A stretch of DNA of 64,000 bases. Origin: Acidobacteriota bacterium (GTDB taxonomy: Bacteria; Acidobacteriota; Terriglobia; Terriglobales; Acidobacteriaceae). Below, in pieces: positions 43,918 through 50,159 of the stretch (positions within the stretch are counted from its first letter, which is position 1; every line of letters starts with the position of its first letter). The stretch lies in contig QIBA01000032.1 in assembly GCA_003225175.1 (NCBI GenBank), forward strand, positions 62,001-126,000, in the 5' to 3' direction. The translations under genes and the position numbers were made by a program. Under the pieces are notes generated by a model. That model was not told where the DNA came from, ran no database searches, and saw only the letters and a list, made by a program, of their open reading frames with translations.

Positions 43918-44370
43918 ATGTTTGCTTTGCTCGGAGGCGGTGTGCGCAAGAAGATGCTGGTGATCGAGGACGAGAAGATCGACGCGCTCGGCATCGGGCG
44001 AGTGCTCAAGAAGGAATTTCCCAACGTAGCGCTCGAAGTGGTAACTAACGGGGAACAGGCGCTGGATTGGATTCAGCGTTTTCGTCCCGATCCCGAGGAA
44101 AGCGTGTTTCTCGTGCTTATGGATCTGACCATGCCACGCATGAGCGGCCTGGATCTAATCTCCGAATTTAAGAGACACGCTCAACTGCATTCGACGCCGA
44201 TTGTGATTCTCAGTGGCAGTGACAGTCCGTCAGCAATAAGTTCGGCTTACGGTTTGGGAGCTTGTGGGTACCTGGTAAAACCCAGCACATCAGCGGAGAT
44301 GAGCGATCTACTCAGCAAGACTCTCAATTACTGGTTGAATGCAAACCGACTTCCAGCGGAGCCTGCTTAA
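43918..44370 (+). CDS. Single-domain response regulator (CheY/Rcp1-like)
   Basis: 150 residues. KMLVIEDEKIDALGIGRVLK forms the acidic pocket, LVLMDLTMPRMSGLDL carries Asp 69, VILSGSDSP replaces the usual T/S with Ser, and GYLVKPS has the conserved Lys. An alternative start near GTG 43939 would remove seven residues. No output domain: it likely acts by protein-protein contact. The PAS kinase begins 70 bases downstream. Confidence 0.83.
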   Translation: MFALLGGGVRKKMLVIEDEKIDALGIGRVLKKEFPNVALEVVTNGEQALDWIQRFRPDPEESVFLVLMDLTMPRMSGLDLISEFKRHAQLHSTPIVILSGSDSPSAISSAYGLGACGYLVKPSTSAEMSDLLSKTLNYWLNANRLPAEPA

Positions 44371-44439
44371 TCCGGCATTTTGCTTGAGAGTAGCTGATCC
44401 GATGTGGTCGCCTGACCACAAATTTGCAACTTCGAGGTT

Positions 44440-45951
44440 ATGTTGGCTTCAATACGTCGCACTTCAGTTACACCTGAAACGACACTCCACTCCGAACACG
44501 TCTTCCGCACGCTTGTAGATTCGGTAAAGGATTACGCGATCTTCCTCTTAACTCCCGAAGGAGATGTCGCCTCCTGGAATCCCGGCGCCGAACGAATCAA
44601 GGGTTACAAAACAGCCGAGATCATCGGTAAAAACTTCAGACTCTTCTATCCGCCTGACGATCTAGTCACGGACAAGCCAGGACACGAACTCAAGGTCGCT
44701 GCCGAAGTGGGAAGCTTCGAAGATGAAGGCTGGCGCTTACGAAAAGATGGCAGCCGCTTCTGGGCCAACGTCATCATCACCCGGATTCTCGATGAGAGCG
44801 GGAGGCTGATTGGCTTTGGCAAGATCACGCGCGACCTCACCGATCGCAGGGAAGTGGAGCTGCAATACCGCCGGCTCATTGAAGGTATTACCGATTACGC
44901 AATCTACTCCGTTGATCCGGAGGGCAGGGTTACCAGTTGGAACTCCGGCGCAAAGCGGTTAAAGGGCTATGAGGCTGAGGAGGTCATCGGCCAGAACTTC
45001 TCGAAGTTCTACACTCCGGAGGATGTAGCTGCAAATCTGCCGGCACAGGTGCTTGAGACCGCCGCTCGAGACGGACACTATGAGGCCGAGGGCTGGCGTG
45101 TGCGCAAAAACGGCCAGCGATTCTGGTCGAGCGTTGCGATCACACCGATTCGGGACGAAGCTGGTACTCTCGTCGGCTTTTCCAAAATCACCCGCGACGT
45201 CACCGATCGCAAGGCTCTTGTCCACCAACTTCAGCAGCACTCCAAAGAGCTCGAACTCAGAGTCAAAGAGCGCGAGCAGACGAATGCTGAGCTGGAAGCG
45301 TTCAGCTACTCCGTCTCGCACGACTTGCGTGCGCCGCTCAGAGCCATCGAAGGATTCGCCGATATCATGCTCCAGGATTTCGCCGGCGAGCTGCCGGACG
45401 AGGTCAAAGAATCGCTCCGGCACATCGTCACAGCAACCATGAGAATGAACCGGCTGATTCAGGATCTGCTTACTTACAGCCGCCTCTCCCGAATCGAATT
45501 CAAGTTGGAAGCAGTCAACGTGAGGTCTGTAGTCTCGGATGCCTGTAACGAATTGGACAGGGATGCGCGCTCAAGGGTGTCCGTCTCAGCAAATCCTGCC
45601 TTAGCGATACGAGCATACAAGCCGATTCTGCGGCAGGTGATTTCCAATCTGCTGACGAATGCGGTGAAATTTACCCAGCCGGAAACTCCGCCCTCTGTCA
45701 CAATACATGCCTGCAGGCGTGGCGACTATGTAAGCATTGAAGTCACGGATCAGGGAATCGGAATTGCGCCCCAACACCAGGAGCGGATATTCCAGGTTTT
45801 CGAGAGACTGCACAATGCGGAAGAGTATCCCGGCACCGGGATTGGCCTCGCTATTGTGCGGCGGGGAATTATTCGCATGGGCGGCACTGTGAGTCTTCGA
45901 TCCGAAATGGGAAAAGGCAGCACCTTTGAAATCCGGCTTCCTTCGGCGTGA
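44440..45951 (+). CDS. Cytosolic PAS-PAS sensor histidine kinase
   Basis: 503 residues without transmembrane helices. Two PAS domains: FRTLVDSVKDYAIFLLTPEG to about 135, and RLIEGITDYAIYSVDPEG from ~148 to ~260. A short coiled coil leads to HisKA with His 294 in FSYSVSHDLRAPLRAIEGF. The ATP-binding domain has QVISNLLTNAVKF (N box), EVTDQGIGIAP (G1) and YPGTGIGLAIVRR (G2). The PAS-phytochrome-like kinase type often signals to single-domain Rcp regulators. The stop overlaps the next start by four bases (GTGA). Confidence 0.92.
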   Translation: MLASIRRTSVTPETTLHSEHVFRTLVDSVKDYAIFLLTPEGDVASWNPGAERIKGYKTAEIIGKNFRLFYPPDDLVTDKPGHELKVAAEVGSFEDEGWRLRKDGSRFWANVIITRILDESGRLIGFGKITRDLTDRREVELQYRRLIEGITDYAIYSVDPEGRVTSWNSGAKRLKGYEAEEVIGQNFSKFYTPEDVAANLPAQVLETAARDGHYEAEGWRVRKNGQRFWSSVAITPIRDEAGTLVGFSKITRDVTDRKALVHQLQQHSKELELRVKEREQTNAELEAFSYSVSHDLRAPLRAIEGFADIMLQDFAGELPDEVKESLRHIVTATMRMNRLIQDLLTYSRLSRIEFKLEAVNVRSVVSDACNELDRDARSRVSVSANPALAIRAYKPILRQVISNLLTNAVKFTQPETPPSVTIHACRRGDYVSIEVTDQGIGIAPQHQERIFQVFERLHNAEEYPGTGIGLAIVRRGIIRMGGTVSLRSEMGKGSTFEIRLPSA

Positions 45952-46427
45952 ATATGTCTGCGCAACGTAACATTTTGCTGATTGAGGATGAAGCTAGTGA
46001 CGCCCTGCTTATTAAACGGGCGTTTGAGAAGGCGGGCTTCGACTTCAAGTTCTGGCGGCTCAAGCATGGTGAAGAGGCGATCAATTATCTCAGTGGCGTT
46101 TCGCCCTTCGACGATCGTGAGACTCACCCCTTACCCGACGTCATTCTCCTTGATATCAAACTCCCCCGCCGCACCGGCTTTGAAGTACTGGAGTGGCTTC
46201 GATCACAACCCCCCGGCCTAAGCCGCATTCCGGTTGTGATGCTGACCTCCTCCCGCCATTCGGTCGATGTGAACCGCGCCTATGATCTCCGCGCAAACGG
46301 CTATCTCACCAAGCCCGACACTGCCCACCAGCTCCAGGAAATGATGATGGATTTTAAGAAGTACTGGCTGCACTGGAACGAGCAGCCGGAGGCGCGCGCC
46401 GAAGTTGATCAGTATCGCCTGCGCTAG
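45948..46427 (+). CDS. Rcp1-type single-domain response regulator
   Basis: 159 residues from GTG 45948 (ATG 45954 is also possible). NILLIEDEASDALLIKRAF gives the acidic pocket, DVILLDIKLPRRTGFEVLEW has the phosphorylation Asp near 69, VVMLTSSR the Thr, and GYLTKPDT the conserved Lys. The layout with extra residues between beta strands 3 and 4 is typical of Rcp1/CheY-like regulators paired with PAS/phytochrome kinases. Translationally coupled to the kinase; no output domain. Confidence 0.9.
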   Translation: MNMSAQRNILLIEDEASDALLIKRAFEKAGFDFKFWRLKHGEEAINYLSGVSPFDDRETHPLPDVILLDIKLPRRTGFEVLEWLRSQPPGLSRIPVVMLTSSRHSVDVNRAYDLRANGYLTKPDTAHQLQEMMMDFKKYWLHWNEQPEARAEVDQYRLR

Positions 46428-47902: not shown

Positions 47903-48046
47903 CTACTGATTGTTCACTTCTCCCGATTGCGCGATGAACGTGGTCCCAGCGAGCGCCGCATTTGCGGTTGCTCGAGTGGAGGCGATCCGATCACCCGATC
48001 CCTGCCACCCGTGCACTGTCGGCAATGGTACTACTTCTTTGATCAT
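47903..48046 (-). CDS. Possible 47-residue ORF coupled to the AhpD-like gene
   Basis: The ATG overlaps the stop of the upstream gene (ATGA at 48046-48043). The frame reads IKEVVPLPTVHGWQGSGDRI to ANAALAGTTFIAQSGEVNNQ and then stops. No family is recognised, and part of its sequence resembles an intergenic GATCGGGTGAT repeat, so it may be non-coding. Between 47681 and 47902 I see nothing else. Confidence 0.2.
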   Translation of the reverse strand: MIKEVVPLPTVHGWQGSGDRIASTRATANAALAGTTFIAQSGEVNNQ

Positions 48047-48588
48047 CGATTCTCTGCCACATATAGATGATCGCTCTCCGCGTTGTACAACCGGTTCAAA
48101 CGTGCGCGATAGTTCTCAAATGAAACCTGCGCCGCAAGCTCGATCAACTGTTCCTCCGAGAATTGATTGCGCAGCCTGGCATAGAGTTCGTCCGACACGT
48201 TCGCCGGAGTATTGGTGAGCGCATCCGCAAGCTCAATCACCATCCGTTCCACGTCGTTGAAGCCGCTAAGATCTTCACCAAGTATGGCCGCCAGCTTGGC
48301 GTCGCTGAGTCCTGCTTTTCTGCCCACGGCAGAGTTGATGTCCACTCAAAACGGACAGCCAATCCGTGATGCGGCTCGCACTTTGCTCAACTGCGTATAG
48401 CGCAAGGAGACACGCCGCTTTCTGCTCAGTCCGGCCTCCATGCCGATGCTGCCCCACACCACTCCAGGCACACGCATCTGGATCTTTGCCGGCGTGAGAT
48501 CCCGCCCAAACATCTTCCTCATTGCTCCGTAAAACCAGCGCAAATGCCAGGGCGCCTGATTTTTCTCGAGACCTGCAATTCGTGGCAT
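48043..48588 (-). CDS. AhpD-like carboxymuconolactone decarboxylase family protein, candidate selenoprotein (TGA at codon 81)
   Basis: 181 residues if the in-frame TGA at 48346-48348 is read as selenocysteine. ATG 48588 begins MPRIAGLEKNQAPWHLRWFY. Family residues flank the TGA: RYTQLSKVRAASRIGCPF before and VDINSAVGRKAGLSDAKL after, ending with LTNTPANVSDELYARL and FENYRARLNRLY. Relatives have Cys at this position (GCPxC), so the redox pair would be C78 and U81. No other lesion breaks the frame. A hairpin with 6-bp stem and GUG loop lies 18 bases after the TGA, within the known bacterial SECIS range. Alternatives: a nonsense mutation of a Cys codon or a sequencing error. Gene products of this family reduce peroxides or act on small thiol/lactone substrates; the substrate here is unknown. 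Confidence 0.72.
48319..48333 (-). promoter_or_regulatory. Candidate bacterial SECIS hairpin
   Basis: In the mRNA, UCUGCC-GUG-GGCAGA forms a perfect 6-bp stem with a three-base loop that starts with G. The loop begins 18 nucleotides after the UGA. The published bSECIS pattern asks for an apical loop of 3-14 bases with a G in the first two positions, an upper stem of 4-16 bp and 16-37 bases between UGA and loop; all are met. The stem is short and lies within coding sequence, so chance folding cannot be excluded. Confidence 0.55.
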
Positions 48589-48746: not shown

Positions 48747-49082
48747 CTAGGACAAGGACACCGCCTCTTCCCCGAGTTGTTCGTTGACTAGTCTTCCGAC
48801 GAGCGGTTTGAGCCGTTCGCCGGTTTTTTCCAGGACAAAGTCATTTTCGGTTTCGGACCAGTCCAGTTTGAAACTCGTGGAGAGAGCTGAGATCCATATC
48901 TGGCGAACTGGGGTGTTGGGAGTAATGACGAACTTCGCGGGTGGTTCCTCGAAGACGACGTTCAGGACGCCATTCTGTTCTTCGACTTCAATCGCGGCCT
49001 CGTCTTCGGCTGCGATCAAGCTCTTTTTCAGGTCTTCTACGGCCACATCGGCCTTGCGACGGAAATCGAGTTCGTCGAGCAT
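48747..49082 (-). CDS. cyaY: Frataxin-like iron protein CyaY
   Basis: 111 residues from ATG 49082. The order is frataxin-like: LDELDFRRKADVAVEDLKKS (acidic first helix), DEAAIEVEEQNGVLNVVFEE (beta strands), KFVITPNTPVRQIWISALST with the conserved PxRQIW motif, then FKLDWSE and a last helix. CyaY binds iron and modulates the IscS/IscU cluster assembly. It lies between the AhpD-like gene and a GH99-like lipoprotein gene on the same strand; there is no isc gene next to it. Confidence 0.85.
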   Translation of the reverse strand: MLDELDFRRKADVAVEDLKKSLIAAEDEAAIEVEEQNGVLNVVFEEPPAKFVITPNTPVRQIWISALSTSFKLDWSETENDFVLEKTGERLKPLVGRLVNEQLGEEAVSLS

Positions 49083-49129
49083 GGGGACATTATAGGTGGT
49101 GGATGTTGTTGGTGTCGGTGGCCGTGGAC

Positions 49130-49149
49130 CCATTCGCTACCGCGAATGG
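49130..49149. repeat. TACC-loop hairpin
   Basis: CCATTCGC-TACC-GCGAATGG, followed by TTCT. It sits across the stop of the GH99-like gene. The same hairpin type, with changed stem but the same loop, is at 53541-53560. Confidence 0.65.
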
Positions 49150-49151
49150 TT

Positions 49152-50159
49152 CTATCCGCCAGCGCGCTGTGCTGTTTCGGTCTTGCCTCCGCAGTCGGCG
49201 ATGCCGCGTTCGATGGCTGTTCCTTCCTCGTAGTCGTTCCAGGTAACGATCATGAGGAACGGTAGCGGGCGATCGGCGGGGAAGTAGCGGCGGTGAAGGT
49301 TGAGGGAGTCTTCGAGGGTTTTGCCGCAGCGGGCGTCCATCTTGCGGCCTTGGCCCCATTCCGCTTTGGAGTCGTCGAAGCCAGGCCATGCGGCGCCTAC
49401 TGCGATCTTCTCGGTTTGTTTCGACATTCTGCTGTAGAAGTCCTCGAGATAGCTGCGGCCCCAGTTGCTCCCGTCTTTGACCCATCCCTTTTTTCCCGGT
49501 GAAACCCAGGCGTAGTAGCCGTCGAAGGCGCCCCAATCTTTTGCGTCTTGATCCTCATAAAGGAGAATGGGCGGATGCTCCCATCCATCCACGGCCTGCT
49601 TCACCCGCTTCCAGTCTGTGTCTCCCGATTTGGGAAAGACGAAGATCATGGGACGGCCGTCGTAGGACAGATAAGCACCCGCAGGCATTGAGGACTTCGG
49701 GCCGATGTAGTGCTCGTATGCGTATTGCAGATCGGAGATTGCTTGTTGGGTGGCGCGGCTGGGATCGTCCACGCTTTCGTCGTACATGATGGCCGTCTTG
49801 AATCCATGTTCAGATGAAACTCGTTGCAGCGCGGCGTAGCTGCGGTCCTCGAAGTCGTGTGAGGGTCCATACCAGTTCACGACGAACGCTTTGATGTTGA
49901 GGTCTTTCGCGTGCTCGACCTGCTGGGCAAGAACGTTCGAATCTTGCGAGTTGTACCCGACGTCGATGTGTCCAGAACGTCCGAACCATGGCTGATACGC
50001 AGCGATGATCTGCGGACTGCCTTCAGGTGCGGAGAATTCTGATCGCAGCGTGCGAGCGATATCAGTGCGATGCGAACCGGCGCATCCTGAGAGATTCAGG
50101 AGAACTATAGTGCCGACAAAAAGACAGAAACGCTGAATAGCTCCGAAAGAAACTTGCAT
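49152..50159 (-). CDS. GH99/GH71-like lipoprotein
   Basis: 335 residues. The N-terminus ends with LLNLSGC, a lipobox, so it is exported and probably lipidated. The domain from residue ~48 begins QIIAAYQPWFGRSGHIDVGY and continues with KAFVVNWYGPSHDFED, FKTAIMYDESVDD, YLSYDGRPMIFVF and FLMIVTWNDYEEGTAIERG, motifs shared by GH99 and GH71 glycoside hydrolase-like folds. A likely acidic active-site pair is in TWNDYEEG. It could act on alpha-mannans or alpha-glucans. The stop is created by a TACC-loop hairpin repeat. Confidence 0.75.
   Translation of the reverse strand: MQVSFGAIQRFCLFVGTIVLLNLSGCAGSHRTDIARTLRSEFSAPEGSPQIIAAYQPWFGRSGHIDVGYNSQDSNVLAQQVEHAKDLNIKAFVVNWYGPSHDFEDRSYAALQRVSSEHGFKTAIMYDESVDDPSRATQQAISDLQYAYEHYIGPKSSMPAGAYLSYDGRPMIFVFPKSGDTDWKRVKQAVDGWEHPPILLYEDQDAKDWGAFDGYYAWVSPGKKGWVKDGSNWGRSYLEDFYSRMSKQTEKIAVGAAWPGFDDSKAEWGQGRKMDARCGKTLEDSLNLHRRYFPADRPLPFLMIVTWNDYEEGTAIERGIADCGGKTETAQRAGG

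Follow-up and report, generated by a model that had tools for sequence, protein, structure and literature searches.

The window analysed here, a stretch of 64,000 nucleotides from a contig of an Acidobacteriota bacterium, carries on its minus strand a gene of 181 codons plus stop (48043–48588) that very probably encodes a selenoprotein with an AhpD-like/carboxymuconolactone decarboxylase (CMD) fold, as judged from its frame, a match to the Pfam family PF02627, an AlphaFold model and matches to Protein Data Bank (PDB) entries. The frame starts with an ATG at 48588, meets an internal TGA at 48348–48346 (codon 81) and ends with a stop codon, also TGA, at 48045–48043. Eighty codons precede the internal TGA and read-through adds 100 more up to the stop, so that the joined product has 181 amino acids, with U, the putative selenocysteine (Sec), as residue 81 in the context R-I-G-C-P-F-U-V-D-I-N-S-A-V-G-R. 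Apart from the TGA at codon 81, the gene is free of stops and frameshifts. The original prediction had two frames joining across this TGA between 48043 and 48588, with no other lesion in the gene, and this was confirmed. It had given the coordinates without a strand; the coordinates stand, and the strand is now refined to minus, the plus-strand translation of 48043–48588 not being the selenoprotein gene. It had also placed the TGA at the second Cys of a GCPxC motif, which agrees with the redox motif G-C78-P-F-U81 found in the product, a CxxU motif of two redox residues in which Sec would be the second. Gene finders that read TGA as a stop only would split such a gene or call it broken.

The gene next upstream, on the same strand, encodes a frataxin-like CyaY protein (48747–49133, minus strand; PF01491, 71 bits) and had no counterpart in the flanking frames of the other loci in the comparison (L and G numbers denote loci and genomes, respectively). 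A lipoprotein-like frame lies at 49152–50159 on the minus strand; the part of it present in L021, complete at the C-terminus, is weakly similar to glycosyl hydrolase families 71/99, below both cut-offs. At 43918–46427 on the plus strand, what appear by eye from their translations to be a response regulator, a PAS-domain histidine kinase and a second response regulator stand in a row. Within about 1.5 kb of the selenoprotein gene we found no conserved partner: of the three flanking frames, one, located downstream on the other strand, recurs, and does so in L022. One subclade of the Sec-encoding relatives (L043, L044, L046, L048 and L051) has a common downstream gene on the opposite strand; the copy in L046 encodes a member of the NAD-dependent epimerase family (PF01370 with DUF1731).

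The read-through protein matches PF02627 with 29.2 bits (cut-off 23). Since this match spans the TGA, and since the alignment with homologues continues on either side of the TGA, which they share, the joined reading is more than chance. The same Pfam family was matched at E 0.001 by 29 of the 29 members in our protein alignment, which comprises 29 of 34 loci and omits L024, L027, L033, L039 and L053 for an unclear start or frame.

We examined the conservation of the TGA in a family search of 300 genomes, themselves a sample of a larger group; 243 of the 300 match at E 0.001, mostly as distant relatives. Forty matches reach at least 88 bits; 39 of them cover the codon (in 36 genomes, the window gene included), all with an in-frame TGA. 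Inspection by codon of 32 of these 39 found TGA at the aligned position in all 32, and the remaining seven were assessed by stop tally alone. The 39 do not include G138, whose match covers residues 6–62 only and does not reach the codon, or G078, whose match (62.6 bits) covers residues 7–87 only, has no stop and lies at a contig end. As for additional stop codons, the second TGA in the matched stretch of G005 is the end of the gene, and the TAG in that of G291 precedes the gene start. A further search of 396 genomes of the phylum gave 12 matches at E 1e-18, 11 with TGA. Over all 46 loci compared (34 plus 12), TGA occupies the aligned codon in 41, the window gene included, and TGC occupies it in five (L027, L028, L055, L056 and L062). 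The position of the TGA is thus shared between genera and, at greater distance, within the phylum, and the five TGC loci answer the earlier question of whether homologues have Cys at position 81. Two Cys homologues come from Planctomycetota; their identity to the window protein is 36% and 44%, the latter over part of its length, which is within the range spanned by the more distant Sec loci. The contig scan behind them used a Cys pattern, by which Cys forms only were detectable, and returned these two loci. A protein search of a plasmid collection returned 63 records, each less than 60% identical to the window protein (28–33% in the best ten of the 63).

One alternative to selenocysteine is that the TGA replaces an original Cys codon, in a pseudogene or through a sequencing error. 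TGA is one base away from TGC or TGT, and TGC is what five homologues have. Against such a lesion stands the fact that the closer homologues covering the codon share this TGA, 39 of 39 by stop tally and 32 of 32 by codon, in independent genomes; nonsense codons at random positions in close relatives, which the original prediction had named as evidence against itself, were looked for and none was found. Selection on the sequence after the TGA also argues against a lesion. In comparison with an 88%-identical relative, dN/dS was 0.074 after the TGA (93 codons) and 0.088 before it (78 codons). Six other, more distant pairs gave finite values of 0.087, 0.113, 0.159 and 0.205 after the TGA, with two pairs saturated; the third and fourth of these values, from L031 and L032, are higher than those before the TGA (0.136 and 0.057, respectively). 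By these ratios, the codons 3′ of the TGA are under purifying selection. Separately, contig C69 of G138 contains at 95240–95410 a 70%-identical piece, corresponding to residues 6–62 and with an internal TAG, which is perhaps a decayed copy of a selenoprotein gene.

In the RNA past the UGA, we found a hairpin (48319–48333, minus strand) with the 6-bp stem UCUGCC/GGCAGA and a GUG loop (UCUGCC-GUG-GGCAGA); its loop starts 18 nt after the UGA and its folding energy is −8.4 kcal/mol. The model of the bacterial selenocysteine insertion sequence (SECIS) set out in the available part of PMC13188914 has a loop of 3–9 nt, a stem of 4–16 bp, a distance of 16–37 nt from the UGA, a G within the first two loop positions and an energy of at most −7.5 kcal/mol. 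The window hairpin conforms to this model with its 3-nt loop, 6 bp, 18 nt and energy. For the window gene, the z-score of the folding energy is −0.18 over 41 nt, −0.93 over 33 nt and −2.86 for the 27-nt core. Averaged over 32 TGA loci, z is −1.12 for the sequence following the codon; five other offsets gave means of −0.25 to +0.11 (34 loci, two Cys loci included). Folding energy alone makes a weak case for the hairpin of the window gene; the comparative evidence is strong.

This comparative evidence comes from codon choice and from base pairing among the TGA loci, with L026, whose hairpin has a different sequence, omitted (31 of 32 loci in the codon counts and in SECIS alignment A1, and 40 of 41 TGA loci in alignment A3). 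Two rare codons stand in the stem region. Ser86 is encoded by TCT in 30 of 31 loci, a codon that makes up 7.7% of 247 other Ser codons in matched parts of the same genes, and of the 28 loci with Arg at position 90, 25 use AGA, which accounts for 3.3% of the 478 other Arg codons in those parts. In the alignment of 40 loci, 93.6% of the stem cells are paired, compared with 35–60% when the partner is slid; five of seven stem pairs show two-sided changes, and the covariation score of 0.300 compares with at most 0.128 in the slid controls and was reached by none of 500 shuffles. Several loci of the wider phylum, for example, have Ala (GCT) in place of Ser86 together with a change of the partner base from A to C, which retains the pair. 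A covariance model built from the 40 rows, the window gene among them, gives the window hairpin 51.2 bits, and detected none of this kind in the five Cys loci, where the best score was 7.8 bits. Thus, on the evidence of these alignments, the hairpin is conserved at the RNA level. Such conservation with covariation also speaks against a pseudogene or sequencing error, which we now regard as very improbable. The covariance model represents one gene family and misses the TGA of selD (see below), so that it is mute on other selenoproteins. Its second match in the genome of the window (contig C70, 25.7 bits, E 0.08) has no open frame on the matching strand and was set aside as a chance match.

The original prediction had implied that the genome should contain selA, selB, selC and selD, and had named their absence as grounds for rejection. 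All four were present in the host genome (5.73 Mb, 98.9% complete), above the curated cut-offs: selA with 554 bits (cut-off 268), selB with 377 bits (242), selD with 371 bits (125) and tRNA-Sec with 64.4 bits (gathering cut-off 47), the last being called as Sec with the anticodon TCA by ARAGORN. The selD gene (L010 1501–2421, on contig C38 of the host genome, G000) itself has an in-frame TGA, read as AAG-U-ASK, so that at least two genes of this genome seem to need UGA decoding. Among the 300 family genomes, selA exceeds its cut-off in 34 of the 36 carriers of the gene and in 117 of the 264 others (Fisher p 3e-9, with genomes counted as independent and relatedness ignored). The two carriers without a selA match, G003 and G123, have selB and tRNA-Sec above the cut-offs, and G123 is listed as 100% complete; selA may be missing from both through assembly loss. 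The absence of a selA match in these two counts somewhat against the reading as a selenoprotein gene. Within the genus of the window genome, two of six genomes (G002 and G004) have no match to the gene but have selA and selB, with tRNA-Sec above the cut-off in G004 and not in G002.

Read-through of an in-frame UGA by itself leaves the inserted residue unnamed, and the codon might be read by another route, for instance as Trp, by a suppressor tRNA or after a change of the code. Several observations count against a residue other than Sec: the genome has the complete Sec machinery including a tRNA-Sec with a TCA anticodon, UGA also terminates this same gene, the position is Cys in other homologues, and a SECIS-type hairpin follows. 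We give such a decoding route hardly any weight. The sel genes, the conserved TGA and the SECIS-type hairpin with covariation together support the candidate selenoprotein that had been proposed: TGA 48348–48346 is very probably a selenocysteine codon. We have high confidence in the fuller reading, in which the UGA would be decoded as Sec via SelB and tRNA-Sec with the help of a SECIS element to give an AhpD-like CxxU redox protein. SelB and tRNA-Sec would decode the internal UGA under the direction of the SECIS hairpin, which lies within the coding sequence with its loop 18 nt downstream; in the all-helical product, Cys78 and Sec81, at the beginning of helix 79–91, would pair as a redox-active CxxU selenenylsulfide, and Sec81 would be the selenolate that attacks or exchanges. 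On the genomic evidence, we expect Sec to be inserted in living cells. The gene would add a well-supported selenoprotein, the same gene being present in 36 of the 300 family genomes.

The structure of the product was predicted by AlphaFold with Cys in place of Sec and the 29-row alignment as input. The model is all-helical (mean pLDDT 94), with residue 81 near the start of helix 79–91. Its 13 best PDB entries, with Z-scores of 17.8–22.0, are AhpD-like or peroxidase-related proteins, the debrominase Bmp8 among them, and are headed by 2prr (Z 22.0, rmsd 2.3 over 181 residues) and 6k40 (Z 21.8). They include the AhpD proteins of Streptococcus pneumoniae (6e8l, Z 20.9) and Pseudomonas aeruginosa (7xw1, Z 17.8); the Mycobacterium tuberculosis AhpD structures match more weakly (Z about 11). 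The score against the AhpD domain model TIGR00778 is 18.9, below the cut-off of 27.8. Four NCBIfam models match the window protein, each below its curated cut-off; the best, NF053654 (GroundWater_YciW), matches over the full length with 104 bits, against a curated cut-off of 310.

We then compared the active site with that of PA0269, whose relay is described in the accessible portion of PMC3141380 as Glu36, Cys48, Tyr50, Cys51 and His55; the same source gives the two Cys and the His as invariant in the AhpD-like proteins that it compares. In an alignment to 2o4d, the window counterparts of the relay are Gln66, Cys78, Phe80, Sec81 and Asn85. By this alignment the active site is unusual in being relay-less. 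The earlier assignment as AhpD-like therefore stands at the level of the AhpD-like/CMD superfamily and does not extend to AhpD in the strict sense, as Gln66 and Asn85 replace the relay Glu and His. A true AhpD, acting as peroxidase or as AhpC adaptor through a Glu/His relay and with Sec for the second Cys, would be compatible with Sec, and the fold similarity to 6e8l and 7xw1 and the CxxU in place of CxxC are in its favour. The substitution of both relay residues, one of them the His that PMC3141380 reports as invariant, the low Z-scores with M. tuberculosis AhpD and the TIGR00778 score below the cut-off make a true AhpD unlikely in our judgement. Because the relay residues are missing, peroxidase activity is not transferable from AhpD to this protein. 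We take the product to be a thiol/selenol redox enzyme, most likely one that reduces a peroxide or another electrophilic or oxidized small molecule.

The relay Glu66 and His85 occur together in two of the 41 Sec loci, L025 and L026. A selenol is ionized at neutral pH. Selenocysteine may thus have made the Glu-His relay of AhpD dispensable in the Sec proteins, with Gln66 and Asn85 now at the positions in the window protein. That the Cys homologues L055, L056 and L062 are also without these two residues makes a link between Sec and loss of the relay less firm. The fold exists in four combinations: with the relay, it has Cys in PA0269 and Sec in L025 and L026; in relay-less form, it has Cys in L055, L056 and L062 and Sec in others, such as the window protein. 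If loss of the relay follows from Sec, the subfamily would offer a natural test of the benefit of selenium to an enzyme.

A tree of 45 of the 46 rows, with L053 left out as its frame departs upstream of the motif, requires three changes of the Sec label and does not fix their direction. The Planctomycetota Cys pair nests among Sec rows (branch 95/92) and could represent a Sec-to-Cys change. L026 (1498–2019, in G003) is a second AhpD-like frame, distantly related, in which TGA occupies the corresponding position of the motif (NCEY-U-LASH). It joins the Cys rows on a very long branch, a join flagged by the tree tool. Both relay residues, Glu and His, are retained in it, and its hairpin, CCGUCUU-GGC-AAGACGG, differs in sequence; by these features L026 may be a separate, independent gain of Sec.

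Part of the family appears to be connected with ECF41 sigma factors. As described in the available text of PMC3426412, these factors control adjacent genes for carboxymuconolactone decarboxylases, oxidoreductases or epimerases (COE) from the promoter TGTCACA-n16-CGTC, and the signal to which they respond is given there as unknown. We scanned the 46 loci for this promoter with spacers of 14–18, requiring an exact second box and tolerating at most one mismatch in the first. The sole matches, all with the exact sequence TGTCACA-n16-CGTC, were in the Sec relatives L037, L038 and L040, 72–84 bases upstream of the aligned start, and in the Cys relative L055, 50 bases upstream of it; about 0.0004 exact matches per locus are expected by a hand estimate with even base composition. 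The upstream stretch of L056 is short, so that the absence of a promoter there is uninformative. Downstream of the gene in L038, L040 and L055 lies an ECF41-like sigma gene whose product has Sigma70 regions r2 and r4 and a SnoaL_2 domain below the cut-off, and a similar sigma gene is present in L056. The L055 sigma protein exceeds the cut-offs of TIGR02957 and NF007214 (SigJ), and that of L040 is below both (256.7 against 271 for NF007214); SigJ/SigX4 is presumably the same group as ECF41. The nearest sigma homologue in the genome of L037 is located elsewhere, and in G059 a partial sigma homologue precedes the second Sec gene by about 0.8 kb.

Like some of these relatives, the window protein could be an ECF41-type COE enzyme acting on a small electrophile rather than a general peroxidase, again a reading compatible with Sec. 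The exact promoter in four loci and the sigma genes beside L038, L040, L055 and L056 favour it. The window gene itself has no ECF41 promoter nearby, its genome has no homologue of the L040 sigma factor at E 1e-25 (the same was true of six of the 13 carrier genomes searched), and the relatives concerned are about 36–50% identical to the window protein. With neither promoter nor sigma homologue for the window gene, the ECF41 reading is confined to the relatives, and we see it for the window protein as a possible but not the favoured assignment. Where Sec members are preceded by the exact ECF41 promoter, this would provide a way to approach the stimulus to which these enzymes respond. As a broader and quite tentative proposal, which we hold to be rather doubtful as a whole, the proteins may form a phylum-wide, mostly Sec-using subfamily of the AhpD fold in which Sec replaced Cys and the need for a relay, and part of which, the window gene not included, would be a selenium-dependent ECF41 target, with one sigma factor switching one selenoenzyme.

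Little is in print on selenocysteine in Acidobacteriota within the literature that we searched. PMC1794560, in its accessible part, gives four selenoproteins in three families for the phylum, and PMC12013277, likewise consulted in part, gives three selenoproteins in Occallatibacter riparius. A literature search whose reach did not extend to most subscription papers found no description of the present subgroup. NF053654, annotated as a 'YciW-related (seleno)protein', resembles it in being matched by all 29 aligned members, and differs in that the window protein scores far below its cut-off; 'YciW' is absent from the available text of PMC13188914, and our limited literature search did not show the family.

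In comparison with known systems, the gene shares with the ECF41 COE carboxymuconolactone decarboxylases, as far as the accessible part of PMC3426412 describes them, neither the promoter nor the adjacent sigma gene, both of which some of its Sec relatives have. Its predicted product has the all-helical fold common to the AhpD-like structures 2o4d/2ijc (PA0269), 7xw1, 2prr, 6k40 and 6e8l, with the CxxC/U motif at the start of a helix. PA0269 has a Cys-Cys pair with the relay Glu and His, whereas the window protein would have a Cys-Sec pair with Gln66 and Asn85. Its closest counterparts in kind are the AhpD-like/CMD-like CxxU selenoproteins, which are of the same superfamily (PF02627), have the same CxxU motif and carry Sec at the second Cys position; the window protein differs from them in the absence of the relay Glu and His. 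Such proteins have been reported from Geobacter and Alkaliphilus (in the part of PMC1794560 available) and, as AhpD-like 1 and 2, from marine metagenomes (PMC2398784, likewise in part), and the table in the available part of PMC13188914 places them under TIGR01926, PF02627, NF041047 and NF041238. The premise that AhpD-like selenoproteins are a known group is thus borne out by CxxU members in published surveys, and the window gene adds a member to that kind.
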